A stretch of DNA of 64,000 bases from Alienimonas californiensis (GTDB lineage Bacteria > Planctomycetota > Planctomycetia > Planctomycetales > Planctomycetaceae). Numbering within the stretch: the first letter of the stretch is position 1; each line of letters begins with the position of its first letter. Shown here in pieces: positions 16,285-61,576 of the stretch. The position numbers and the translations under genes were made by a program. The notes under the pieces were generated by a model that did not search any database, was not told where the DNA came from, and worked only from the letters and a program-made list of their open reading frames with translations. The DNA lies in contig NZ_CP036265.1 in the NCBI RefSeq assembly GCF_007743815.1, forward strand, positions 4,048,823 through 4,112,822, given 5' to 3'.

Positions 16285-17604
16285 TCAGACGTTGAGCGTG
16301 GCGAACAGGTCGTCGTAGGTCTCCGCCCGGCGAATCTGCTCGACGGAGCCGTCTTCCTTCAACAGGTACTCCGCGCTGCGGAGCTTACCGTTGTACTGGA
16401 AGCCCATGCTGTGCCCGTGGGCGCCGGCGTCGTGGATCGCCAGCACGTCCCCGCGCTCGACGGCGGGCAGTTCGCGGTCGATGGCGAACTTGTCGTTGTT
16501 CTCACACAGGGAGCCGACCACGTCGACCGGCCCGGCGCTGGGGGCGTTGACCTTCTCCCCGCCACGGCCCAGCACGCTGACGTGGTGGTAGGCGCCGTAC
16601 ATGCCGGGCCGCATCAGGTTCGCCATGCAGGCGTCCACGCCGACGTACCGCTTGTAGATCTCCTTGCGGTGCACCGCCTTGGTGACCAGCACGCCGTACG
16701 GGCCGGTCATGCAGCGGCCGTTCTCCATATACACCGCCAGCGGATCGAGCCCGGCGGGGAGGACGATCTCGTCGTAGGCGGCCTTCGTCCCCTCGGAGAC
16801 CTGTTCGTAGCTCACCGCCTCCTGCCCGGGCCGGTAGGGGATGCCGATGCCGCCGCCGAGGTTCACGAACTCAATCCGCACGCCCGTCGCCTCGTGCACC
16901 TCGACGGCGAGGGCGAACAGCATGCGGGCGGTGTCGACGAAGAACTGCGGGTCGAGTTCGTTGCTGGCGACCATCGCGTGCAGCCCGAACCGCTTCACCC
17001 CGCCGGCCTGCGCCTGTCGGTAGCCGTCGAACAGTTGCTCGCGGGTGAAGCCGTACTTGGCGTCCTCCGGCTTGCCGATAATCGCATTTCCGCCCCGCAG
17101 GGGGCCGGGGTTGAACCGGAAACAAAGCGTCTCCGGCAGCCCGCCCGCCTCTTCGGCGACGTAGGGCAGGTGGGTCAGATCGTCCAGGTTGAGGATCGCC
17201 CCCAGCTCCTTCGCCCGACGAAACTCCACGGCGGGGGTGTTGTTGGAGGTGAACATGATCCGTTCGCCCGTCACGCCGATGCGATCGCAGAGCATCAGTT
17301 CCGCGGCGCTGGAGCAGTCCATCCCGCAGTTCTCGTCGCGGAATAGTTCCAGGATGCCCGGCGTGGGCGTCGCTTTGACCGCGAAGTATTCGCGGAAGCC
17401 CGGGTTCCAGGCGAAGGCGGCGTTCAGCCGGCGGGCGTTCGCGCGGATACCGGCCTCGTCGTAGATGTGGAACGGCGTGGGCAGTTCGTCCGCCAGTTCG
17501 CACAGCTTCGCCGCGTCGATCGGCAGCGGCTTGACCGGGGCGCCGGTTCCCTCCGCGGAGGAGGGGGCGGAGGACGAGGCGGGGGGATCGAGGACGGCGG
17601 ACAT
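16285..17604 (-). CDS. lysA: Diaminopimelate decarboxylase
   Basis: This is a fold-type III PLP enzyme (439 residues) making lysine from meso-diaminopimelate. It has the PLP-lysine motif YFAVKATPTP near residue 75, the glycine-rich phosphate loop FVNLGGGIGIPY, and ENGRCMTGPYG. The C-terminal active-site segment DAGAHGHSMGFQYNG is also present. The usual GxHxHxGS motif appears as GLHAMVASNE, a variant also seen in ornithine/arginine decarboxylase relatives, so the substrate call is good but not certain. I chose the start MSAVLDPPAS. The frame runs open for a further ~2.8 kb upstream only as an antisense artefact of the gene at 17896. Confidence 0.88.
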   Translation of the reverse strand: MSAVLDPPASSSAPSSAEGTGAPVKPLPIDAAKLCELADELPTPFHIYDEAGIRANARRLNAAFAWNPGFREYFAVKATPTPGILELFRDENCGMDCSSAAELMLCDRIGVTGERIMFTSNNTPAVEFRRAKELGAILNLDDLTHLPYVAEEAGGLPETLCFRFNPGPLRGGNAIIGKPEDAKYGFTREQLFDGYRQAQAGGVKRFGLHAMVASNELDPQFFVDTARMLFALAVEVHEATGVRIEFVNLGGGIGIPYRPGQEAVSYEQVSEGTKAAYDEIVLPAGLDPLAVYMENGRCMTGPYGVLVTKAVHRKEIYKRYVGVDACMANLMRPGMYGAYHHVSVLGRGGEKVNAPSAGPVDVVGSLCENNDKFAIDRELPAVERGDVLAIHDAGAHGHSMGFQYNGKLRSAEYLLKEDGSVEQIRRAETYDDLFATLNV

Positions 17605-50655: not shown

Positions 50656-50687
50656 GAAAAAACCCGCCCCGGCGAACCGGGGCGGGT
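50656..50687 (-). terminator. Intrinsic terminator on the minus strand with no gene feeding it
   Basis: An 11-bp perfect GC stem (50662-50672 with 50677-50687) has a TTCG loop on the minus strand, followed by TTTTTT. No protein gene lies within 800 bases to its right on that strand. It directly follows the RNA-3'-end-like repeat at 50684-50708, so it is best read as the terminator of a lost structural RNA gene. Confidence 0.8.
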
Positions 50688-50708
50688 CAGTAGAGGCGTG
50701 GGGACTCC
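50684..50708 (-). repeat. Direct repeat A, tmRNA/tRNA 3'-end-like (attachment-site candidate)
   Basis: This 25-bp sequence matches repeat B at 61978-62002 at 22 positions in the same orientation. On the minus strand it reads GGAGTCCCCACGCCTCTAC, shaped like the T-loop end plus acceptor strand of a tRNA or tmRNA. The rest of such an RNA is missing. Together with B it brackets the glycan cluster. Confidence 0.55.
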
Positions 50709-51511: not shown

Positions 51512-52528
51512 ATGAGCGTCGCCCCGCCCGTGGTCGTCGGGATGCCGGTCCGCAACGCAGAACGTTATCTCCCCGAGGCGCTGGACTCCCTGCTGGGGCA
51601 GACGTTCGGGGATTTTGAGCTGGTGATCTCCGATAACGCCTCGACCGACGGCACGGAGGCCCTCTGCCGCGCCGCGGCCGCCCGCGACGACCGCGTGCGC
51701 TACGAGCGACTGTCGGAAAACGTGGGGGCTATCGAGAACTTTAACCGTCTGGCCCGTGCCGCCCGCGGGTGCTACTTCAAGTGGGCCGCCTCCGACGACC
51801 TGTGCTCGCCCACGTTTCTTGAGCGCTGCGTGGAACGGCTGGACGGCGACGGCGCCCTCGCCTGGTGCCACCCGCTGACCCGTCACATTGACGGCGACGG
51901 CGACCCGATCGCGGCCCAGGACGACCCCGCCATCCCCGCCGGCGAGCCGAACCATAGCCTGACCCGCGTCGGCGCCACCGGCATGCGGTTCGACCGCACC
52001 GCGGCGGCGGCGTGGCGGCGATTTCGGGCGGTCGTGCTGGGGACGACCTGGTGTTCGGACAGCTACGGCCTGATTCGCCTCGACGCCCTCCGGAGAACCG
52101 CGCTGCTGCCGCCGTTCTTCGGGGCGGAGAAAGTGCTCATGGCCGATCTCGCCCTGCACGGCCGGTTCGCGGAGATTCCGGAGGTGCTCTTTTCGCAGCG
52201 GATCCACGCTGACGCCGCGAGCAACCTCGGCGGGGCGGACGCCGAACGCACCTTCGCCCGCGCGGCGGCGGGAGCCGGGAAGTTCTCGTCCACCCGTCTG
52301 GCCCTGCTGCGGGGGTACGCCTCCGCGGTGCGGCGGGCGGACCTGTCCGCCGCCGACCGATTCCACTGCTTCACCACATTGGGGCTCTACGTCGGGCAGG
52401 TGGGCAAGTGGGGCCGGGTATTGAAGTCCGCGGCGGCCGGCCGGGGCGTCGGCGACGACACCTTCCGCAAGGTGGCCGCCCGCCGAACGGCCTCTCGCAC
52501 GCGCTCCGTCGAGGAGTCCGATCGATGA
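51512..52528 (+). CDS. Family 2 glycosyltransferase
   Basis: This GT-A glycosyltransferase (338 residues) is the first gene of the cluster. It has VVVGMPVRNAERYLPEALDS, VISDNASTDGTEALC, NVGAIENFNRLAR and the metal site WAASDDLCSPTFLE, where the DD replaces the classic DxD. There are no membrane helices. It would add a sugar to a lipid-linked glycan. The stop overlaps the next start (ATGA), and the cluster continues without gaps. Confidence 0.9.
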   Translation: MSVAPPVVVGMPVRNAERYLPEALDSLLGQTFGDFELVISDNASTDGTEALCRAAAARDDRVRYERLSENVGAIENFNRLARAARGCYFKWAASDDLCSPTFLERCVERLDGDGALAWCHPLTRHIDGDGDPIAAQDDPAIPAGEPNHSLTRVGATGMRFDRTAAAAWRRFRAVVLGTTWCSDSYGLIRLDALRRTALLPPFFGAEKVLMADLALHGRFAEIPEVLFSQRIHADAASNLGGADAERTFARAAAGAGKFSSTRLALLRGYASAVRRADLSAADRFHCFTTLGLYVGQVGKWGRVLKSAAAGRGVGDDTFRKVAARRTASRTRSVEESDR

Positions 52529-53316
52529 ACTTCACCGCTCCGCCGTCTGATCGGCCGGTCGCGGCCGCCCCGCCGGAATCGGTCGTTCTGATCGTCGATC
52601 CCCGACGGATTGTTCGGTGGCTGCTGGCGGTCGTCGTCGTCGTCGCGGCGGTGGGGACGGCCGCGGACTGGATCATCTATCAGGTCGCCGATCATCCGGA
52701 CGACGGCCTCGCGAGGGTGGCCCGGCGGTTCGACCTGGGGCACGAACCGAGCTTGCCGGCGTGGTACTCGTCGCTGGCCCTGCTGGCCTGCGGGGCATTG
52801 GCGGCGCTGATCGCCCGGGTCGTACGGGAGGATCGACTCTGGTGGGGGCTGCTCGCGGCGCTGTTCGCTGGCCTGGCGCTGGACGAGGCGGTGATGATCC
52901 ATGAGATGGCCGACGGCGTGACGCACGAGGCGCTCGACGGCGGCGGGGTCCTTTACTTCACCTGGGTCGTGCCGGGGCTGATCTTCGTGGCGGGCGTTTG
53001 CGCTCTCTTCGCCCGCTTCCTCTGGCGATTGCCGGCCCGCACGCGGTGGCGATTTATCTTGGCCGGCGGGACGTTTGTGGCGGGAGCGGTCGGGATGGAG
53101 ATGGCCGCCGGCGCCGTGGTCGATTCCTACCCCACCGAGGCCGAAGGCATTGCCTCGCCGGCTCATATCGCGGTGCAAGCGGTGGAAGAGTCGCTGGAAA
53201 TGCTCGGCGTCTTGCTGTTCCTGGCGGCGGAACTGGATTATCTCGCCATGGCCGCCGGTTCAATTGTCCTCCGGTTCGCCCGGACCGGCCCCGCTGACGA
53301 ACTCCTGACCGAATGA
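52525..53316 (+). CDS. Polytopic membrane protein of unknown function
   Basis: This 263-residue protein has about six hydrophobic helices (the first is RWLLAVVVVVAAVGTAADWI). The helix-end motifs AGLALDEAVMIHEMADGVTH and VEESLEMLGVLLFLAAELD carry conserved-looking Asp, Glu and His inside or next to the membrane. Such acidic/His sets can hold metal for intramembrane chemistry, but no named family is recognised. GAGGAG just upstream of the ATG is a good ribosome site. Both ends overlap neighbouring genes by 4 bases (ATGA), so it is firmly part of the operon. Confidence 0.75.
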   Translation: MNFTAPPSDRPVAAAPPESVVLIVDPRRIVRWLLAVVVVVAAVGTAADWIIYQVADHPDDGLARVARRFDLGHEPSLPAWYSSLALLACGALAALIARVVREDRLWWGLLAALFAGLALDEAVMIHEMADGVTHEALDGGGVLYFTWVVPGLIFVAGVCALFARFLWRLPARTRWRFILAGGTFVAGAVGMEMAAGAVVDSYPTEAEGIASPAHIAVQAVEESLEMLGVLLFLAAELDYLAMAAGSIVLRFARTGPADELLTE

Positions 53317-54512
53317 CCAATGCCCGCTGCTGTCCCGGGTGCGGCTCGGACCGGCTGACCGACCTGTTCGAGGCGACCGGCCAGCCGGTGCACGTCGGCA
53401 TTTTCGGCGAGACCGCCGAACAGGCCCGTGCCCTGCCGACCGGCGAAATCACGCTCGCCCACTGCGGGCGCTGCGGGCTGGTGCACAACCGATCGTTCGA
53501 ACCGGCGAAACTCGGGTATCGGCCGGGGTACGAGGTCGCGCTGCACCATTCCGCGACCTTCCGCGATTATCTCGACGGACTGATCGACGGGCTCATCGAC
53601 CGGTTCGACCTGCGCGGCAAAAGGGCGCTGGAGATCGGCTGCGGCGACGGCTACTTCCTGACCCGTCTGGCGGAGCGGGCCGGGCTGCACGGGGTCGGCG
53701 TCGACCCGACCGCCCCCCGCGAGGGCCGCGAGCTGGCCGGGGACGGTACGGTCGAGCTGATCCGGGCTTACTTCGACGAGGGAACTGCCCGCCGCGTGAA
53801 TGATCCGCCGGTCGAGTTCGTCGCCTGCCTGTCGGCGTTCGAACACGTCCCCCAGCCGGCGGGGTTGTTGAAGACCGTGCGGGAGATGGCGGGCGGGCGG
53901 GCGGGCGGGCTGTATTTCGAAACCTTCGACGCCCGCCGGGCGCTCGGTCGCGGGGAGATTTGGAGCGTCCACTACGAGCAGTGCAACCTGTTTGGGGCCG
54001 CGTCCCTGGCCGCGTTGTTCCAACATGCGGGACTGACGGTGACGGACGCCGGCAACTGCTACGCCGGCGACCAATACGCCTACGTCGACGCGGTCGCCGG
54101 TCCCGCCCCCGCGGACCCGCCGCAGGACCTGGAGCCGGACGGCCTGCCGCCGGAACTGGCGAAGTTCCGCGAGACTTACCGGGCCAGGCACGCCGAATGG
54201 ACCGCCCGGCTGGCCGAATGGCGGGCGACGGGCAAGACGGCGGCGTTCTGGGGGGCGGCGGGTAAAGGGGTGACGTTCCTGAACTCCCTGCCGCTCGCGG
54301 GACCGGGGGACGGCGTGGTCGAAGCGGTCGTCGATTCCAACCCGGACAAGCACGGCAAGTTTCTGCCCGGAACCGGGCACCCGATCGTCCCGCCCGAAGC
54401 CCTCGCGGCGAACCCGCCGGACGCGATCGTCCTCTCCAACGCCCTGTACGAGCGGGAGATCCGCGCCCGGGCGGAAGAACTGGGCGTGACCTGCGAGTTC
54501 CACGTCGCCTGA
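53313..54512 (+). CDS. SAM-dependent methyltransferase with zinc N-domain and C-terminal domain (sugar C-methyltransferase type)
   Basis: This 399-residue protein has three parts. Residues 1-60 hold two Cys pairs (CCPGCGSD and HCGRCGLVHN) forming a zinc-binding domain (Methyltransf_13). Residues ~90-250 are a class I methyltransferase (RALEIGCGDGYFLTRLAE). The C-terminal part is a Rossmann-like domain (AAFWGAAGKGVTFLNSLPL). This three-part layout is that of the TylC3/NovU deoxysugar C-methyltransferases. It suggests that the glycan contains a branched or C-methylated sugar. Confidence 0.88.
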   Translation: MTNARCCPGCGSDRLTDLFEATGQPVHVGIFGETAEQARALPTGEITLAHCGRCGLVHNRSFEPAKLGYRPGYEVALHHSATFRDYLDGLIDGLIDRFDLRGKRALEIGCGDGYFLTRLAERAGLHGVGVDPTAPREGRELAGDGTVELIRAYFDEGTARRVNDPPVEFVACLSAFEHVPQPAGLLKTVREMAGGRAGGLYFETFDARRALGRGEIWSVHYEQCNLFGAASLAALFQHAGLTVTDAGNCYAGDQYAYVDAVAGPAPADPPQDLEPDGLPPELAKFRETYRARHAEWTARLAEWRATGKTAAFWGAAGKGVTFLNSLPLAGPGDGVVEAVVDSNPDKHGKFLPGTGHPIVPPEALAANPPDAIVLSNALYEREIRARAEELGVTCEFHVA

Positions 54513-54554
54513 CCGTCGCCTGAACCCACGCCCCCGCTCCCCGCACGCCCCGGC

Positions 54555-55490
54555 ATGGCGACGCTCGAACCGATCACTCCGGAGCTGTTCCCGAAGCTCT
54601 ACACGGCGTTTCTCCACGACGACGACCCGCTGTCCGGGGAGTCGGAGTGGCGGCGGGTGTTCGACTACGCCTGGGAGAAGCCGGAGGGCCACGCCGGGTA
54701 CGCCCTGCTGGAGGGGGACGAGGCGATCGGCTTTTTGGGGATGATCTTTAGCAGACGGATCGTGAACGGGCGGGAGGAACGGTTCTGCAACCTCCACACC
54801 TGGTGGGTTCGGAAGGATCGCCGCGGGCATAGCCTGATGTTATTGCGGCCGATCACACGACTCCGCGGGTACACAATCACCCACTTCACACCGGGCGATC
54901 GGGTGCGAGCGGTGCTGCGGCGGCTGGGATTTCGCGACCTCAGTTCGCAGTTGACGATCCTTGCGCCGCCGGGACGTCACGGGAGACTGCCGGCGGGGGC
55001 GACCCTGTCGTTTGATGCGGACGAGATGGTCGACCGGCTCCCCGAAACGGAACGTCGCCTGCTGACGGACCACAGGCCTTACCCGGTCGAGCCGCTGCTC
55101 GTCGAGGTGGGCGGGGAACGATGCCTCGTGTTGCACAGCCACGTGGTACGGCACCGGCTGCCCTACGTTCACGTCCACCACGTCAGCGACCGGGAGCTGT
55201 TCCTGAAGCGGGAGCCGGCGGTTCGGGCGGCTCTGCTGGAGCGCTACCAGGCCCGCTTTGCGGCGATCGACACGCGGCTGTTCCCAGGGACGCGGTTCCG
55301 GCGAGGCGTTCGGTTCTGGGCGCCGGCGAACGCCCTTTATAAATCGGACGACGTTCCGCCGGAGCGGATCGACAACCTTTATTCGGACGTGACGCTGCTG
55401 GCCCTGACCACCCTGCCGGACCTGACGCACGAGGTGACCGAGCGGGGCCGCCGCCTGCTCGGCCTGTCCTCCAACGCCGAACCGGCCTGA
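54555..55490 (+). CDS. GNAT-like acyltransferase or related protein
   Basis: This 311-residue protein begins with a GNAT-like half (ITPELFPKLYTAFLHDDDPL; LHTWWVRKDRRGHSLMLLRP resembles the acetyl-CoA strand and pyrophosphate loop). The second half has no clear family, with repeated His/Arg segments (SHVVRHRLPYVHVHHVSDRE). It may acylate an amino sugar in the glycan. It starts 42 bases after the methyltransferase. Confidence in the function is low. Confidence 0.6.
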   Translation: MATLEPITPELFPKLYTAFLHDDDPLSGESEWRRVFDYAWEKPEGHAGYALLEGDEAIGFLGMIFSRRIVNGREERFCNLHTWWVRKDRRGHSLMLLRPITRLRGYTITHFTPGDRVRAVLRRLGFRDLSSQLTILAPPGRHGRLPAGATLSFDADEMVDRLPETERRLLTDHRPYPVEPLLVEVGGERCLVLHSHVVRHRLPYVHVHHVSDRELFLKREPAVRAALLERYQARFAAIDTRLFPGTRFRRGVRFWAPANALYKSDDVPPERIDNLYSDVTLLALTTLPDLTHEVTERGRRLLGLSSNAEPA

Positions 55491-55895
55491 CGCAGCGGCC
55501 CGGGCAGACGTCGCTCCGCCCCGCTTCGCGAAAATCGAAACGGTGCGACCGGCTTCGTCGGCGTCGTTCGTCCAGGGAACCGGTTTTCCTTCCGCCGTGC
55601 CGGGGGGCGTGTTCTAGGTTGTCCGGCCCCCTCGTCTGTCCGTGCCGTCCGTCTGTCCGTGCCCCCCGTTATCGCCGCCCCGCCGCTGACCGCCGCTGCA
55701 ACGCCTGAGGGGGGCGCCGCCGCTCCACGGGCGGTGCAATGGATGTCCGCGTTCTTGGACCGTCGGCGATCGCGGCCGGCGAGTGCGGCGCGATAAAATC
55801 CGTCGTTCCCCCCGCCGTGAGGCTGCGGCGGGCCGGCTCGAGCACAATCTCCTTGCGGAACGGCTTTCCGCGAACCCATAAATGACAGTTCCCCG
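55491..55895. other. 405-base intergenic gap inside the glycan cluster
   Basis: No gene is seen. A 14-base unit (cgtctgtccgtgcc) occurs twice in a row near 55634-55663. Just before the next start is an A/T-richer stretch (cccataaatgacag). A separate promoter for the second half of the cluster is likely here. Confidence 0.5.
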
Positions 55896-56807
55896 ATGAC
55901 GGACGTCTACTTCAACGCCGACCACCCCGACGAGCGCCGCCGGGAGAACCTGTACGCCGGGGCGATCTACGTCGACGGCGCCAACGACGCGACGCGGGCG
56001 CTCTGCGATTTTGCGCGGGCGCTGTCGGAGGAAGCGTTCGCCCCGCACGACCCGCGGGACGCCCAACACGCGCTGTCGGTGGAAGAGTACAACGCCGTCT
56101 TGAAGGACCTCAAACCGAGTTTTATTCACCACCCGGACAGCAAGACCCTCATTCGGGACGTCCTGCGGGCAGCGGGCTGCGATCTCGACCGCACCTACAC
56201 GGACGTGCCCCGACTGCGGACGGCGACCTCGCACGGCTACCTGACCAGCGGGTTGGCCTACGCGTTCAAGCCGCACCGAGACACCTGGTACTCCCCGCCG
56301 CAGTGCCAACTGAACTGGTGGCTGCCCGTGTACCCGATGGAAGCCGGCAACGGGATGGCTTTCCACCCGCACTACTGGGACCGGGCGATCCGCAACTCGT
56401 CCGCGGAGTTTAATTATCAGGACTGGCAGACCGGCGGGCGGAAGGCGGCCCACGACCAGGGAAAAAGTGACACCCGGGTGCAATCCGAGGCGCTGGAGGA
56501 ACTCGAACTGGAGCCGGCCCTGCGGCTGGTCCCGGAGGCGGGCGGACTGATCGTGTTTAGCGCGGCCCACCTGCATTCGACGGTCCCCAACGAGACCGGT
56601 CGCACGCGACTGAGCATCGATTTCCGCACCGTCAACCGGGACGACCTGGAAGCCGGTCGCGGGGCGCCGAACGTAGACAGCGCCTGCGGGGGCACCACGA
56701 CGATGGACTATCTGCGAGCCGCAGACTTTTCGCACCTGCCCGACGAGCTGATCGCCCGTTACGCGCAGGATCGGCCGGATTGGGCCGCCCCCGCGACCGC
56801 CGCCTGA
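55896..56807 (+). CDS. Phytanoyl-CoA dioxygenase-like Fe(II)/2-oxoglutarate oxygenase
   Basis: This 303-residue protein has a double-stranded beta-helix oxygenase fold. The first metal pair is HRD (His127, Asp129), then WWLPVYPMEAGNGMAFHPHY. The distal His lies in FSAAHLHSTVPNETGRTRLS, with Arg236 or Arg238 for 2-oxoglutarate. Such enzymes hydroxylate lipids, amino acids or sugars. In this cluster the substrate is probably the acyl or aminoacyl part, or the sugar. It is followed by 186 non-coding bases. Confidence 0.8.
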   Translation: MTDVYFNADHPDERRRENLYAGAIYVDGANDATRALCDFARALSEEAFAPHDPRDAQHALSVEEYNAVLKDLKPSFIHHPDSKTLIRDVLRAAGCDLDRTYTDVPRLRTATSHGYLTSGLAYAFKPHRDTWYSPPQCQLNWWLPVYPMEAGNGMAFHPHYWDRAIRNSSAEFNYQDWQTGGRKAAHDQGKSDTRVQSEALEELELEPALRLVPEAGGLIVFSAAHLHSTVPNETGRTRLSIDFRTVNRDDLEAGRGAPNVDSACGGTTTMDYLRAADFSHLPDELIARYAQDRPDWAAPATAA

Positions 56808-56993
56808 CCGATCGTCCCGTCGCGTTCCCGTTCCCCGCAGTGCCGCCGCCATGCCCGACGCCCCGACCGGCCCGCCGACCGCTCGCCCTCGCGGTTCCCG
56901 CCGCGCCTGCGACGCTGCGCTGCGGTTGGGCAGCGTGAAGGCGCAGGCCGACCGCGGCTTCGCCCGGGCAGATTGCGGCCGGGACACGGCGTC

Positions 56994-58316
56994 GTGACAG
57001 CAAGGCTCTCCGAATCGGCGACCGAAGCGATTCATGACGCGCCCTCGCTCCGCCGCGGGGCGGCACGGTCGCTGCTGGCGCGTGCCGTCTCCGATCCGGT
57101 GTTGGCGATCCTGGATCAGGGGGTGGTGAGCGGGACGCGGTTCGTCACCACGGTGGCCGTGGGGCGGGCGGCCGGAGAGGCGGAGTTGGGCGTCTACGCT
57201 TTGGCGGCGGCAGGACTGATTTTCGCCGGGGTGGCGCAGGAGGCGATCGTGACCAAGCCCTACACCGTGCTGCGGGAGGGCGACGCCGATCCCGGCTACG
57301 CCGGCAGCGCCCTGCTGCAACACGTCGGGCTGGGCGGGGGATTGGCGGCCGCGTTGCTGATCGCCGCCGCCGCGGCCGCGGCGGCGGGGGCGACGGCCGC
57401 CGCGGCCGTGCTGGCGGCGCTGGCGGTCGTCACGCCGCTCTCCCTGCTCTGGGAGTTCGCCCGCCGGATGAGTTTCGCTCACCTGCACCTCCGCACTGCC
57501 CTGGCGGTGGACTGCGGTCTGGCGGCGATGCAACTGGGGGCGTTGGCGGGGCTGTGGGCGACCGGGCGGCTCACCGCCCTCACCGCCTTGGCGGCGACCG
57601 GGGCGGGGGCGGCCGTCGCGGGGGCGATCTGGCTGGCGCGGGCGCGGGCCTCGCTCCGGTTCGCAAGGGGGCGGGCCGGCGAGGACTGGCGGCGGAGCTG
57701 GCGGTTCGGCCGCTGGATCCTCGCCGCTCAACTGTGCGGACAGGCCTGTGGCAACGCCCCGCACTGGATCCTCGCGGCAGCGGTCGGAATGGCGGCGACC
57801 GGCCGGTTCGCGGCGGCGCAGAACGTCGTGCTGCTCTGCAATCCGCTGATCCTCGCCGTGGGCAGCCTGTTGGTCGCCCAAACCGCCGCCGCTCGACGGT
57901 CCGGCGGTCCGGCGGCGGTCCGCGGGGTGACGGTGCAGACCGCGATCGCGTTGACGGGGCTCACGGGGCTGTTCTGGTTCGGACTGCTGTTCGCCGCCGA
58001 ACCGTTGCTGGGCCTGGTGTACGGGTCGAGCTTCACCTCGGCGGCGCCCGTCATCCTGCTGCTGGGCTTGGCTCCGCTGGCGTGGTCCCTGAGTACCGCC
58101 TTCGAGGCGGGACTCTCCGCAATCGACCGGCCGGAACTCGGGTTTCGGGCAATGCTCGCCGGGCTGCTGGCGACGGTCGTCGCCGCCGTTCCGCTCACCA
58201 TCTTCTACGGAGCGGCGGGAGCGGCGGCGACCGTCGCGATCGGCAGCGCCGTCTCCGCCGCCGCCCTCGCCGTTCCGTTCCTCCGTCTCACCGCCCCCCC
58301 GGCCCCGCACGCATGA
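56994..58316 (+). CDS. Polysaccharide flippase (Wzx/MATE-type)
   Basis: This 440-residue integral membrane protein has about 12 helices, Ala/Leu-rich, starting SLLARAVSDPVLAILDQGVV. The pattern matches the oligosaccharide flippase family, which turns lipid-linked glycan units to the outer face. A GTG start (56994) is chosen; a TTG at 56973 would add seven residues. It overlaps the acyl carrier protein start by 4 bases. Between the oxygenase and this gene lies a partially complementary hairpin at about 56905-56955. Confidence 0.85.
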   Translation: MTARLSESATEAIHDAPSLRRGAARSLLARAVSDPVLAILDQGVVSGTRFVTTVAVGRAAGEAELGVYALAAAGLIFAGVAQEAIVTKPYTVLREGDADPGYAGSALLQHVGLGGGLAAALLIAAAAAAAAGATAAAAVLAALAVVTPLSLLWEFARRMSFAHLHLRTALAVDCGLAAMQLGALAGLWATGRLTALTALAATGAGAAVAGAIWLARARASLRFARGRAGEDWRRSWRFGRWILAAQLCGQACGNAPHWILAAAVGMAATGRFAAAQNVVLLCNPLILAVGSLLVAQTAAARRSGGPAAVRGVTVQTAIALTGLTGLFWFGLLFAAEPLLGLVYGSSFTSAAPVILLLGLAPLAWSLSTAFEAGLSAIDRPELGFRAMLAGLLATVVAAVPLTIFYGAAGAAATVAIGSAVSAAALAVPFLRLTAPPAPHA

Positions 58317-58591
58317 CCGCTTCTCAGGCAAGTCCCGACGCCGCGCATCCCGCCCCCGCGATCCGCGCGTTCGTTCACGAGCAGTTCCCGCTCGCCGCCC
58401 AGCGGGATCTCAGCGACGACGATTCCCTGCTGGACAGCGGAGCCGTCGACTCGCTCGGGATTCTCGATCTCGTCGGCTTTCTGGAGAGTCGATTTGAAAT
58501 TCAGATCGCGGACGAGGACGTGGTCGGCGAGCACTTCGACTCGGTCGCCGCGATGGCCGAATTTGTGGAATCCAAGCGGGCAGGGATCTGA
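58313..58591 (+). CDS. Acyl carrier protein
   Basis: This 92-residue protein has the four-helix carrier layout. The phosphopantetheine attachment site is Ser47 in GAVDSLGILDL, and the rest follows the acidic helix pattern (LESRFEIQIADEDVVGEHFD). It is a dedicated carrier, not the fatty-acid ACP. It lies directly before an AMP-forming ligase and a PLP decarboxylase, so it likely carries an acyl or aminoacyl group activated by the ligase. The ATG overlaps the flippase stop. Confidence 0.9.
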   Translation: MTASQASPDAAHPAPAIRAFVHEQFPLAAQRDLSDDDSLLDSGAVDSLGILDLVGFLESRFEIQIADEDVVGEHFDSVAAMAEFVESKRAGI

Positions 58592-58599
58592 CCGACGCG

Positions 58600-60210
58600 A
58601 TGGACTTCCTCCTGCATCACACGCTGTTCTCCTCCGCCGCCCGTGACGCGGACGCGGAGGCGCTGGTCTTCAAAGACCGACGGCTGTCGTTCGCTCGGTT
58701 CGCCGCGGCGGCCGCTCGGCTGGCGCACGCCCTGCGAAAGTTGGACGTACGACGCGGCGATCGCGTGGCGATCCTGCTGGGGCCGTCGATCGAACTGCCG
58801 ATCGCAATTTACGGCGTCTCCGCGGCGGGGGCGGCGTTCGTGCCGGTGCACCATTCGCTCCGCCCGCCGCAGGTGCGGCATATCCTGCGGGACTGCGGCG
58901 TGCGGGTCCTCATCACCGCCGCCGACCGGGTGGGCGAACTGGCCGAGGTCGCCGCGGAGTGTCCCGACCTGGAGCACGTCGTCGCCGTCGGGGAGACGAA
59001 CCGGGAGACGGACGGGGGGGGCGGCTGCCCCGTGCCAGTTCACGACTGGGGCGTCCTGTGCGACGCCGCGGACGAGACGCCGCCGACGGACCTCGGGATC
59101 GACCGCGATCTCGGAGCGGTGCTCTACACCTCCGGTTCGACCGGGGCGCCGAAGGGCGTAATGCTTTCGCACGCCAACCTGCTGGCCGGGGCGTCGATCG
59201 TCTCGCAGTACCTGTCGATCACCGCCGCGGACCGGCTGCTGGCGGCGCTGCCGTTCAGCTTCGACGCCGGGTTGAACCAACTGACCACCGCGGTGCAACA
59301 GGGGGCGGCCTGTGTGCCGGTTCGGTTCGTCCTGCCGCGGGATCTGGTCCGGGCGCTCGAGGCCGAGCGGATCACCGGCCTGGCGGGCGTGCCGCCGCTG
59401 TGGGCGCGGCTGACGGCGCCGGGATCCGGGCTGGCCGACGCGGACCTGACGGCGCTGCGATACGTGACGAACACCGGCGGAGCGGTCTCCCGGTCGCTAC
59501 TGGATCGGCTGCGGACCGCAGCGCCGAAGGCCGACGTCGTGCTGATGTACGGGCTGACCGAGGCGTTCCGCTCCACCTACCTGCCGCCGGAGGAACTCGA
59601 CCGTCGGCCGGATTCAATGGGGAAAGCGATCCCCAACACGGAGATTCTCGTGGTCTCCGAAGACGGCCGCCGCTGCGAGCCGGGCGAGGTCGGCGAACTG
59701 GTGCACCACGGGCCGACGGTCTCGCGGGGCTATTGGGGCCGGCCGGAGCAGACCGCGGCGGTCCTCCGTCCGCACCCGTTCCCGCCGCCGGGCGGGGCGG
59801 AGCCGGACCGGGTCTGTTACTCCGGCGATCTGGTGCGGATGGACGAGGACGGCTTCCTGTATTTTGTCGGCCGGCGGGACGGCCTGATCAAGACGAGCGG
59901 TTTTCGCGTCAGCCCGACCGAGATTGAGGAAGCGATTAGCGCCGCCGATGGCGTGCGGGAGGCGGCCGTGGTGGGCGTGCCGGACGAGACCCTCGGCCAG
60001 AAGGTGATCGCGTTCGTCGCCCCGGCCGGCGTTGATCCCGCCGCTGTGCGGGCGAGCTGCGCCGCACGGCTGCCGGCCCATATGGTGCCGGCGGCGATCG
60101 AGCCCCGCGACGCCCTGCCGCGAACCGCCAGCGGCAAAACGGACTATCCCGCTCTCCGGGCGGAGGCCGCCGCCGCCCACGCCGCGCCCCAGGCCGCCGC
60201 CCATGACTGA
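58600..60210 (+). CDS. AMP-forming acyl-(acyl carrier) ligase, exosortase-A-associated type
   Basis: This 536-residue adenylate-forming enzyme has the phosphate loop LYTSGSTGAPKGVMLSHANL (residues ~175-194) and GLTEAFRSTYLPPEEL as the A5-like region. It also has YSGDLVRMDEDGFLYFVGR (A7/A8) and the C-terminal DALPRTASGKTDYPAL with the catalytic Lys. It resembles the ligase found next to a PLP decarboxylase in exosortase-A loci. It starts 8 bases after the ACP stop and overlaps the decarboxylase start by 8 bases. Confidence 0.9.
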   Translation: MDFLLHHTLFSSAARDADAEALVFKDRRLSFARFAAAAARLAHALRKLDVRRGDRVAILLGPSIELPIAIYGVSAAGAAFVPVHHSLRPPQVRHILRDCGVRVLITAADRVGELAEVAAECPDLEHVVAVGETNRETDGGGGCPVPVHDWGVLCDAADETPPTDLGIDRDLGAVLYTSGSTGAPKGVMLSHANLLAGASIVSQYLSITAADRLLAALPFSFDAGLNQLTTAVQQGAACVPVRFVLPRDLVRALEAERITGLAGVPPLWARLTAPGSGLADADLTALRYVTNTGGAVSRSLLDRLRTAAPKADVVLMYGLTEAFRSTYLPPEELDRRPDSMGKAIPNTEILVVSEDGRRCEPGEVGELVHHGPTVSRGYWGRPEQTAAVLRPHPFPPPGGAEPDRVCYSGDLVRMDEDGFLYFVGRRDGLIKTSGFRVSPTEIEEAISAADGVREAAVVGVPDETLGQKVIAFVAPAGVDPAAVRASCAARLPAHMVPAAIEPRDALPRTASGKTDYPALRAEAAAAHAAPQAAAHD

Positions 60211-61576
60211 TCCCCCGCAAACCGACCCGCTGCCGCCGCACGTTGCGGCGCTGATCGCCCGGCGGTTCCCGCACTCCGGCGACGAGCTGGTCGTCGGCGG
60301 CGTCGCCGTCGGCGAGTTGGCGGAGCGATTCGGGACGCCGCTGTTCGTCTATGACGGCGGGGCGTTCGCCGCGGCGGAGCGGGCCGTACGGAACGCGCTG
60401 CCGGCCGGGTGGGAGTTGTTTTATTCGATGAAGGCGAACCCAGCGGCCGCTCTGCTGCAATTCTTCATGGGCCGCGGGTGCGGGATTGAGGTGGCCTCCG
60501 CCGGCGAACTGCGGCAGGCGCTCGCCGCCGGCTGTCCCGCCGACCGCGTGATCTTCGCCGGGCCGGGCAAGACCGACGTGGAACTCGCCCTTGCAGTCGA
60601 GGCCGGCGTGGGCGAACTGCACCTCGAATCGGTCGGCGAGGCTCGCCGGCTGGCGAACCTCGCTGCCGGCGGTTCGCTCAGCGCCCGCTTAGCGATTCGC
60701 GTGAATCCGAACGCCGCCGTGCAGGGCGGGGCGATGCGGATGGGCGGGCGACCCAGTCCGTTCGGCGTCGACGAGGAGCGGTTCGAAGAAGCCGTCGATG
60801 AGATCGCCTCCGCCGGTCTGTCGATCGACGGCCTGCACTTGTTCACCGGCACGCAGATTCTTGACGCCGATGTCCTGCTCGCCCAGTACCGGCACGGATT
60901 CGAGCTGGCCCGCCGGCTCGCCGATCGCACCGGCCGGCCGGTGCGCACCGTCGATCTGGGCGGCGGGTGGGGCGTGCCTTATTTCCCCAACGAGGCCCCG
61001 CTCGATCTCGCCGCCCTCGCCGACGGGCTGGTCGAATTGGAAGCGGAACGTACCGCCGACCCGCGGCTGGCCGACGCTCGAGTGGTGCTCGAACCGGGCC
61101 GGTTTCTGACGGCCGAAGCGGGGGTGTATCTCGCCCGGGTGACGGACGTGAAAATTTCCCGGGGCAAGACGTTCGCCGTGCTGGACGGCGGCATGCACCA
61201 CCACCTTGCCGCCTCCGGCAACCTCGGTCAGACGATCAAGCGCAACTACCCGTTAGCGATCGTGAACCGGCTGCGGGCCCCGGCGGGCGAGCCGATTGAG
61301 TTGGTCGGCCCACTCTGCACACCGTTGGACGCCCTCGGCCGGTCGGCGGCGATCCCGACACCGCGGGTCGGCGATCTGGCGGGGGTGTTCCAGTCTGGGG
61401 CCTATGCCCGCGCGGCGAGCCCGCTGGGGTTCCTGAGCCATCCCGCCCCGCCGGAGGTCTGGGTCGATTCCGGAGTCGCCCGCCTAATCCGCCGCCGCGG
61501 CAACCCGGCCGATTTCTTGCACGACCAACTTCCCGCGGCGGGGATTGCGGCATCAGGACGACCGGACGCCGATTGA
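60203..61576 (+). CDS. PLP-dependent decarboxylase, exosortase-A-associated type
   Basis: This 457-residue fold-type III PLP decarboxylase has the PLP lysine in FYSMKANPAAALL (Lys77), VEVASAGEL-like EVASAGELRQAL, DLGGGWGVPYFPNEA and LEPGRFLTAEAG. It is related to lysA at 16285 but is not its duplicate, and the C-terminal Cys region reads VGPLCTPLD. The type is the decarboxylase that pairs with the ligase above. It probably acts on an amino acid before or after carrier loading. It is the last gene of the operon. Confidence 0.9.
   Translation: MTDPPQTDPLPPHVAALIARRFPHSGDELVVGGVAVGELAERFGTPLFVYDGGAFAAAERAVRNALPAGWELFYSMKANPAAALLQFFMGRGCGIEVASAGELRQALAAGCPADRVIFAGPGKTDVELALAVEAGVGELHLESVGEARRLANLAAGGSLSARLAIRVNPNAAVQGGAMRMGGRPSPFGVDEERFEEAVDEIASAGLSIDGLHLFTGTQILDADVLLAQYRHGFELARRLADRTGRPVRTVDLGGGWGVPYFPNEAPLDLAALADGLVELEAERTADPRLADARVVLEPGRFLTAEAGVYLARVTDVKISRGKTFAVLDGGMHHHLAASGNLGQTIKRNYPLAIVNRLRAPAGEPIELVGPLCTPLDALGRSAAIPTPRVGDLAGVFQSGAYARAASPLGFLSHPAPPEVWVDSGVARLIRRRGNPADFLHDQLPAAGIAASGRPDAD

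Follow-up and report, generated by a model that had tools for sequence, protein, structure and literature searches.

Why should a gene cluster that otherwise looks built for glycan assembly carry its own carrier protein, AMP-forming ligase and pyridoxal phosphate (PLP) decarboxylase? The question is raised by positions 51512-61576 of a 64,000-nucleotide stretch of the Alienimonas californiensis genome (contig NZ_CP036265.1, positions 4,048,823 to 4,112,822; this whole stretch is the window below). We propose that four of the genes there, encoding a GNAT-type transferase (GNAT), an acyl or aminoacyl carrier protein (ACP), the AMP-forming ligase (LIG) and the PLP decarboxylase (DEC), form a module that would make and transfer an omega-aminoacyl group, with aspartate loaded on the carrier, decarboxylated there and handed on by the GNAT. 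Judged from sequence comparisons, this reading is moderately likely.

The predicted chemistry begins with the pocket of LIG. The original prediction had called for a comparison of this enzyme with TIGR03098, the exosortase-associated ligase family, and LIG passes that model (636.8 bits, cut-off 592.35); 108 NCBIfam models match it and, among the matches listed, 24 other models all stay below their cut-offs. Over a 152-residue pocket segment the best solved relative is VinN (3wv4, 3wvn), ahead of other beta-amino acid enzymes, and over a 300-residue segment VinN ranks behind two-domain LgrA chains only. The specificity loop aligns without a gap, with one single-residue gap elsewhere, and Asp222, Ala223, Thr292, Phe323 and Arg324 of LIG fall on Asp230, Phe231, Ser299, Lys330 and Arg331 of VinN, the pocket residues named in the available text of a review (PMC11253843). 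A single chain offset of 16 fits all five named positions. Asp230, Ser299 and Arg331 thus have counterparts in LIG together with the short loop, Thr replacing Ser. In VinN, Arg331 would bind the free carboxylate. The LIG pocket fits an amino-dicarboxylic acid, the amine presumably held by Asp and the carboxylate by Arg, and the most likely substrate would be an acidic amino acid, L-aspartate activated via its beta-carboxyl. This Asp plus Arg code is kept in all 82 ligases that have a DEC in the same locus (75 from named loci and 7 planctomycete; 78 of them adjacent to the DEC), which read D-Y-S-F-R or D-A-T-F-R apart from one D-Y-S-H-R, and is missing from three LIG paralogues of this genome (ITVGG, DVALP and SFGSV).

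Another 25 planctomycete ligases have no DEC in the stretch fetched: five resemble the DEC-linked ones, four replace the Asp with Ser or Ile, and 16 read D-Y-T-K-R (L052-L054, L056-L060, L063, L065, L067, L070, L072 and L074-L076). The latter have VinN's own Lys-Arg loop, 14 of the 16 show an ACP match with no DEC match in the stretch fetched, and they may constitute a putative second ACP-ligase system.

DEC would supply the second step. Its best model is TIGR03099, the partner family of TIGR03098, as had been anticipated, but at 452.1 bits it narrowly misses the cut-off of 478.45; the lysA model (TIGR01048) follows at 261.4 bits, also short of its cut-off of 297.9. Among solved structures BtrK comes closest, with two entries at 293 and 292 bits; a diaminopimelate (DAP) decarboxylase follows at 168 bits. 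DEC carries the motif GPLCTPLD and lacks the CExxD motif that is characteristic of LysA. Among 87 DEC rows, 84 have the Gx-x-CT motif, 71 have VGPLCTPLD and three give no match. Elsewhere in the window (16300-17595, - strand, inside a 1376-codon open frame) lies a LysA-like decarboxylase with CENND and RPxxYGAYHH, the motifs expected of LysA. Its own lysA score falls short of the cut-off too (270.5 vs 297.9), so that its identity rests on motif and best match, not on cut-off. Because the genome has this separate LysA-like gene, the cluster DEC is probably not needed for lysine. We regard DEC as a putative BtrK-type aminoacyl-ACP decarboxylase. In the parts of the literature available, BtrK decarboxylates BtrI-S-glutamate (PMC7857480), VinO acts on 3-methylaspartyl-VinL and requires prior loading, FlvN recognises Asp in fluvirucin B2, where the starter is beta-alanine (PMC11284099), and ciromicin-type clusters follow the same load-then-decarboxylate logic (PMC10662134). 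A carrier-bound, decarboxylated aminoacyl group, as originally suggested, is the best reading of the ligase and decarboxylase sequences taken together.

Which genes travel with this pair was examined in a phylum sample of 392 genomes and in a species-genome scan with a DEC alignment, from which the best 80 of at least 562 encoded relatives were taken. In the phylum sample, 31 of 392 genomes hold a ligase match at E 1e-100 or better, eight of them over the TIGR03098 cut-off, and 12 of 392 hold DEC-type enzymes of at least 329 bits, none over the TIGR03099 cut-off, the next scores being 272 and lower. The expected synteny was found: the ACP-LIG-DEC order recurs at planctomycete ligase loci L045, L046, L047, L050, L051 and L055. 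The best 80 relatives form two kinds: LIG-DEC pairs with no adjacent ACP match, which are nearly confined to Proteobacteria, and sets in which an ACP neighbours LIG, found in Planctomycetota, Acidobacteriota, Nitrospirota, Actinomycetota and Rhizobiales/Hyphomicrobiales. The pair-type label means only that no ACP match is adjacent, and in L103, L105, L125 and L151 an ACP found by BLAST lies 2-3 kb away or less; L134 is counted as a pair, its ACP match being weak and on the opposite strand. Four ACPs were located by frame and motif and not by BLAST, a pattern search finding ACPs in L079, L081, L083 and L089, and in L079 and L081 one gene separates ACP from LIG.

GNAT genes extend the set. Relatives of the window GNAT adjoin ACP-LIG-DEC in L050, L080, L084, L085, L087, L089 and L114; the ACPs of L051, L079, L081, L082, L096 and L099 have other proteins of the GNAT or FemAB kind nearby, so that 14 of the 22 ACP-adjacent sets, the window included, have a GNAT-superfamily neighbour with tool support; L097 has a GNAT-like neighbour by eye, with no Pfam match. 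A window-type GNAT occurs in three of the 392 phylum genomes, strong in G000 and G315 only (both carriers of the ACP-LIG-DEC triad) and weak in the third. G315, of the same family as this genome, has GNAT, ACP, LIG and DEC together, and the 20 kb around these four genes contain no BLAST match to the other five window proteins. A free-standing GNAT-ACP-LIG-DEC set lies among neighbours that look unrelated by eye in Phreatobacter (L084), and another is found between alcohol dehydrogenase and queA genes in Agrobacterium (L114). Other sets have glycan-type company: the order in Blastopirellula (L080) is flippase-ACP-LIG-DEC-GNAT, and in L081 a flippase (PF13440) and a polysaccharide deacetylase accompany the set, as do a DegT aminotransferase and two proteins of GNAT type. 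On these comparisons the conserved core is four genes, GNAT, ACP, LIG and DEC. Because some Rhizobiales, and one relative that lacks an exosortase, carry this core by itself, neither glycan genes nor an exosortase are obligatory for it, although a glycan context does occur.

The GNAT assignment comes from synteny and from a structure model. Its Pfam score is below cut-off (16.7 vs 20.7); the AlphaFold model, built from seven sequences, has a pLDDT of 76.3 and shows a tandem GNAT fold. VIA-align ranks Eis 3r1k first, with a Z of 15.1 and 258 residues aligned at an rmsd of 3.8, and other GNATs come within 1 of that Z. The 50 matches that Foldseek and VIA-align list belong to the GNAT superfamily or are N-myristoyltransferases. 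The modelled fold suggests an acyltransferase and does not point to its donor. A role as N-acyl amino acid synthase, for which the available parts of two papers gave a lead (PMC11631085, PMC7293339), was considered and rejected: the window GNAT and three relatives match no NCBIfam family at E 0.001, and no N-acyl amino acid synthase or exosortase acyltransferase model is matched. PHROGs gave no match for the GNAT, and sequence searches of the GNAT and of the oxygenase against solved structures, full-length and by segment, returned no credible relative.

The remaining genes give the module its setting in this genome. All nine lie on the + strand, as the original prediction stated:

51512-52528, + strand: family-2 glycosyltransferase (GT2), PF00535 at 94.5 bits, the only glycosyltransferase among the nine genes
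52525-53316, + strand: membrane protein without a known family (no Pfam family over cut-off, none in NCBIfam with the longer frame used, none in PHROGs)
53313-54512, + strand: sugar C-methyltransferase-like protein, PF13489 at 67.8 bits and PF08484 at 63 bits
54555-55490, + strand: predicted tandem-GNAT acyltransferase of the module core, from synteny of relatives and predicted fold
55896-56807, + strand: PhyH-type 2-oxoglutarate (2OG)-Fe(II) oxygenase, PF05721 at 25.4 bits against a cut-off of 22
56994-58316, + strand: MOP/Wzx-like flippase with a GTG start, a weak NCBIfam MOP-flippase match
58313-58591, + strand: acyl/aminoacyl carrier protein with a DSL serine, PF00550 at 30.2 against 20.8 bits
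58600-60210, + strand: AMP-forming ligase with a putative VinN-like beta-amino-dicarboxylate pocket, TIGR03098, PF00501 and PF13193
60203-61576, + strand: PLP decarboxylase, putatively of BtrK type, with GPLCTPLD; TIGR03099 best, PF02784 and PF00278

Most of the identities first given to these genes hold, with GT2, C-methyltransferase, oxygenase, ACP, LIG and DEC over their Pfam cut-offs and the GNAT fold seen in the model, but the flippase match is weak (22.7 bits vs an NCBIfam cut-off of 273, and no match in Pfam); a 30% identical relative lies directly before the ACP gene in L080. The N-terminal zinc domain of the C-methyltransferase (PF08421) is below cut-off. The "many" ATGA overlaps reported earlier come to three true ones (at 52525, 53313 and 58313), while LIG and DEC share 8 bases and gaps of 405 bases (GNAT to oxygenase) and 186 bases (oxygenase to flippase) depend on the start codons chosen. 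By spacing, the nine genes are not one tight operon: GT2, membrane protein, C-methyltransferase and GNAT form one tight group and flippase, ACP, LIG and DEC another, with the oxygenase in between. The cluster probably serves a surface sugar polymer. The initiating transferase, polymerase and extra glycosyltransferases of a complete Wzx/Wzy cluster were not found among the nine genes by Pfam, the rest of the genome lying outside that search.

Assembled into a pathway, LIG, as its pocket suggests, would adenylate the side-chain carboxyl of an acidic amino acid, most likely L-aspartate, and load the amino acid on the ACP. DEC would then strip the free alpha-carboxyl on the carrier to give beta-alanyl-ACP, or GABA-ACP if the substrate were glutamate, a step proposed from BtrK kinship and the VinO precedent. 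Synteny and fold suggest that the tandem GNAT passes the aminoacyl group to an amine or hydroxyl acceptor. The weakest step is the last: in this cluster the acceptor is most likely a glycan intermediate, which the C-methyltransferase and the oxygenase would tailor and the flippase export, and the polymer would end up with a free amine. The case for attachment to a glycan comes solely from this cluster and a few more, because the four-gene set also stands outside glycan clusters.

Several observations weigh against this pathway. With full-length LIG, VinN is just seventh, after five LgrA rows and 8xjz. Position 231, where VinN has Phe, is Ala in LIG, not a bulky residue, and roughly half of the homologues have Tyr there; Phe231 is reported to be important in VinN. 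The L084 ligase is slightly under the TIGR03098 cut-off (579.2 vs 592.35). DEC falls under the cut-off of its own family; its closest solved relative, BtrK, is itself a glutamyl enzyme; and the module DEC of L080 (L080:9629-10957) passes the lysA cut-off (326 vs 297.9). As to the GNAT, no such neighbour was seen in 7 of the 22 ACP-adjacent sets (L045, L046, L047, L055, L083, L086 and L088; L045 and L047 are short contigs), the FemAB/GNAT genes of L082 are three and four genes from the ACP, and L157, a locus of the pair type, has a GNAT relative (29%) some 4.7 kb from its LIG. Methylobacterium is one genus whose set has no visible GNAT. Incidentally, the DEC at L080:9629-10957 could be annotated as lysine biosynthesis.

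The alternative that survives best keeps the carrier-bound decarboxylation and changes the substrate: L-glutamate, loaded by its gamma-carboxyl, would yield GABA-ACP as in butirosin, perhaps later hydroxylated by the oxygenase. We consider this unlikely, though it has to be weighed. The butirosin system shares with ours the closest solved decarboxylase, acting on a carrier-bound glutamyl group, and a GPLCTP motif common to both enzymes. Where VinN has Phe231, the Ala of LIG hints at extra space; with Ala or Tyr there the pocket may be larger, so that glutamate or a substituted aspartate becomes possible. On the other side, VinN, whose ligand is an aspartate derivative, gives the best alignment to the LIG pocket, and in butirosin glutamate is loaded by a different type of ligase, an ATP-grasp enzyme unlike LIG, the group being attached to an aminoglycoside. 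In favour of the glutamate reading, a 2OG oxygenase comes next in the cluster, and in L082 (2124-6280) a JmjC/Cupin_8 oxygenase directly precedes the ACP, with two FemAB/GNAT-type proteins ahead, an arrangement that parallels the oxygenase and GNAT of the window. The closest relative of the window oxygenase, by contrast, sits among sugar genes. Oxygenase relatives at E 1e-15 or better occur in 9 of 384 genomes, its own included, and the closest (G315, 65% identical) is on a different contig from the four-gene set of that genome, together with a weak C-methyltransferase match (25%), an aminotransferase and nucleotide-sugar dehydratases. An oxygenase relative in L178 has a C-methyltransferase relative (37%) about 8 kb from it, on the opposite strand. 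Because its closest relative sits among nucleotide-sugar genes, the oxygenase is probably a sugar-tailoring enzyme; from these comparisons it and the C-methyltransferase look like sugar tailoring outside the conserved module, and a hydroxylated aminoacyl group, as once suggested, is for that reason not favoured. Action of the oxygenase on the aminoacyl-ACP was entertained as a candidate and is weakened by the same neighbourhood. Its presence in G315, the only other sampled genome with a strong GNAT, hints at a single pathway.

A second alternative, which we find improbable, makes the core an exosortase accessory set that has diverged, its product being used by two distant exosortases in the sorting of PEP-CTERM proteins. 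The observation that no exosortase is visible was correct for the nine-gene cluster, but the genome search found two (PF09721; L006 and L005, at about 5.46 Mb and 0.317 Mb of the genome), at distances of 1.35 Mb and, provided that the single contig is circular, 1.68 Mb, and five PEP-CTERM matches over cut-off, against none in 14 control genomes. One has an XrtU C-terminal domain and the other passes general exosortase models only and is unclassified; neither passes the exosortase A (XrtA) model TIGR03109 (123.7 and 81.8 bits, cut-off 208). PF09721 is present in 158 of the 392 phylum genomes. For 28 of the 80 named loci, 15 ACP-adjacent and 13 pair-type picked by hand, the genome was searched for it as well, and an exosortase was found in 13 of 13 pair-type genomes and in four of the 15 ACP-adjacent ones (L079-L082), these four being the nearest relatives of the window DEC. 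The search did not find it in the other 11 (L083-L089, L096, L097, L099, L114), six of which are not metagenome-assembled genomes (MAGs) by title (L083, L086-L089, L114), their completeness not being given by the search. Among planctomycete triad genomes, G000, G042, G044, G063 and G212 have a PF09721 match and G315 and G050 have none; G374, with LIG and DEC 2 kb apart, has one. An exosortase motif search within 10 kb of the loci found four and was not used.

A quickly built tree of 89 decarboxylases, in which LysA sits on a very long branch, bears on the same question. The window DEC falls in starred, all-ACP-adjacent sets of 6 rows (95) and 17 rows (96), and outside a starred clade (97) of 64 pair-type rows. 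An unstarred join of 21 rows (93) takes in 20 of the 22 ACP-adjacent rows; the placement of L045, L049 and L055, all on long branches, is uncertain. For comparison, the pair-type DEC of L100 scores 608.8 bits on TIGR03099. The likeness to the exosortase-A-associated pair that the original prediction saw is real for LIG, which passes the family cut-off, for DEC as a best match, and for the shared Asp and Arg code; it fails in the DEC score and branch, and in the ACP directly beside LIG. Because DEC lies outside the pair clade, an exosortase was not found in 11 of 15 ACP-adjacent genomes and no exosortase here passes as XrtA, the case for an exosortase-A set is weakened. In L080, a protein encoded just downstream of the module (L080:13006-13752) has a PEP-CTERM-like tail at 16.8 bits, below the cut-off of 20.7.

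That an ordinary fatty-acyl ligase and a lysine-pathway decarboxylase came together by chance in a glycan cluster is very improbable and was rejected, for although both superfamilies are large, most of the listed NCBIfam models matching LIG are acyl-CoA ligases (with lower scores) and the L080 DEC exceeds the lysA cut-off, LIG passes TIGR03098 and none of the 24 others, the window DEC is under the lysA cut-off and lacks CExxD, the ACP-LIG-DEC order is conserved in several phyla, and the genome has its separate LysA-like gene.

Among the closest known systems, the aspartate-loading module proposed here resembles VinN-VinL-VinO of vicenistatin and FlvN-FlvO of fluvirucin B2, in an AMP ligase with the Asp230, Ser/Thr299 and Arg331 pocket, a stand-alone ACP and a PLP decarboxylase working after loading (for VinO, in the available text of PMC11284099); the comparison was made without the VinO and FlvO sequences. 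It differs in having glycan-type neighbours, Ala in place of Phe231 and a tandem GNAT instead of a second ligase or VinK-type acyltransferase, and no polyketide synthase partner was found among the nine genes by Pfam, a search confined to them. The group II polar-flagella glycosylation islands of Aeromonas, in the available text (PMC7874193), are likewise glycan islands with their own ACP and AMP-dependent synthetase, but their genes are of fatty-acid type with luxC, luxE and a ketoreductase, and a decarboxylase is not named there.

The earlier interpretation is thus partly supported, being right on the carrier-bound decarboxylated aminoacyl group and less so on exosortase kinship and hydroxylation. 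The NCBIfam models for the exosortase-linked pair are of 'hypoth_equivalog' type only, and the pocket residues give this pair a concrete predicted substrate class and reaction, for which the four-gene, exosortase-free form offers a simple test system. In the open-licence PMC literature, outside which most subscription papers lie, we found no proposal of this chemistry among the papers listed, no mention of TIGR03098 and none of PEP-CTERM together with both annotation names; we do not claim absence from print. If the reading is true, chemistry known from macrolactam and aminoglycoside antibiotics would also decorate bacterial surfaces. A broader conjecture, which we hold to be decidedly doubtful, is that the whole TIGR03098/TIGR03099 clan, the exosortase pair included, makes beta-alanyl-ACP (or GABA-ACP) and so gives a glycan or lipid of the envelope a free primary amine; with an exosortase this amine would be the nucleophile joined to PEP-CTERM proteins, and without one, with a GNAT, it would solely make the surface cationic.

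Both flanks of the nine-gene set are long stretches without an evident gene. A promoter and terminator scan returned 0 promoter-like sites and 10 terminator-like sites where 6.6 were expected, an uninformative outcome, and a strong terminator-like hairpin lies upstream of the cluster at 50661-50688 of the window, on the - strand.

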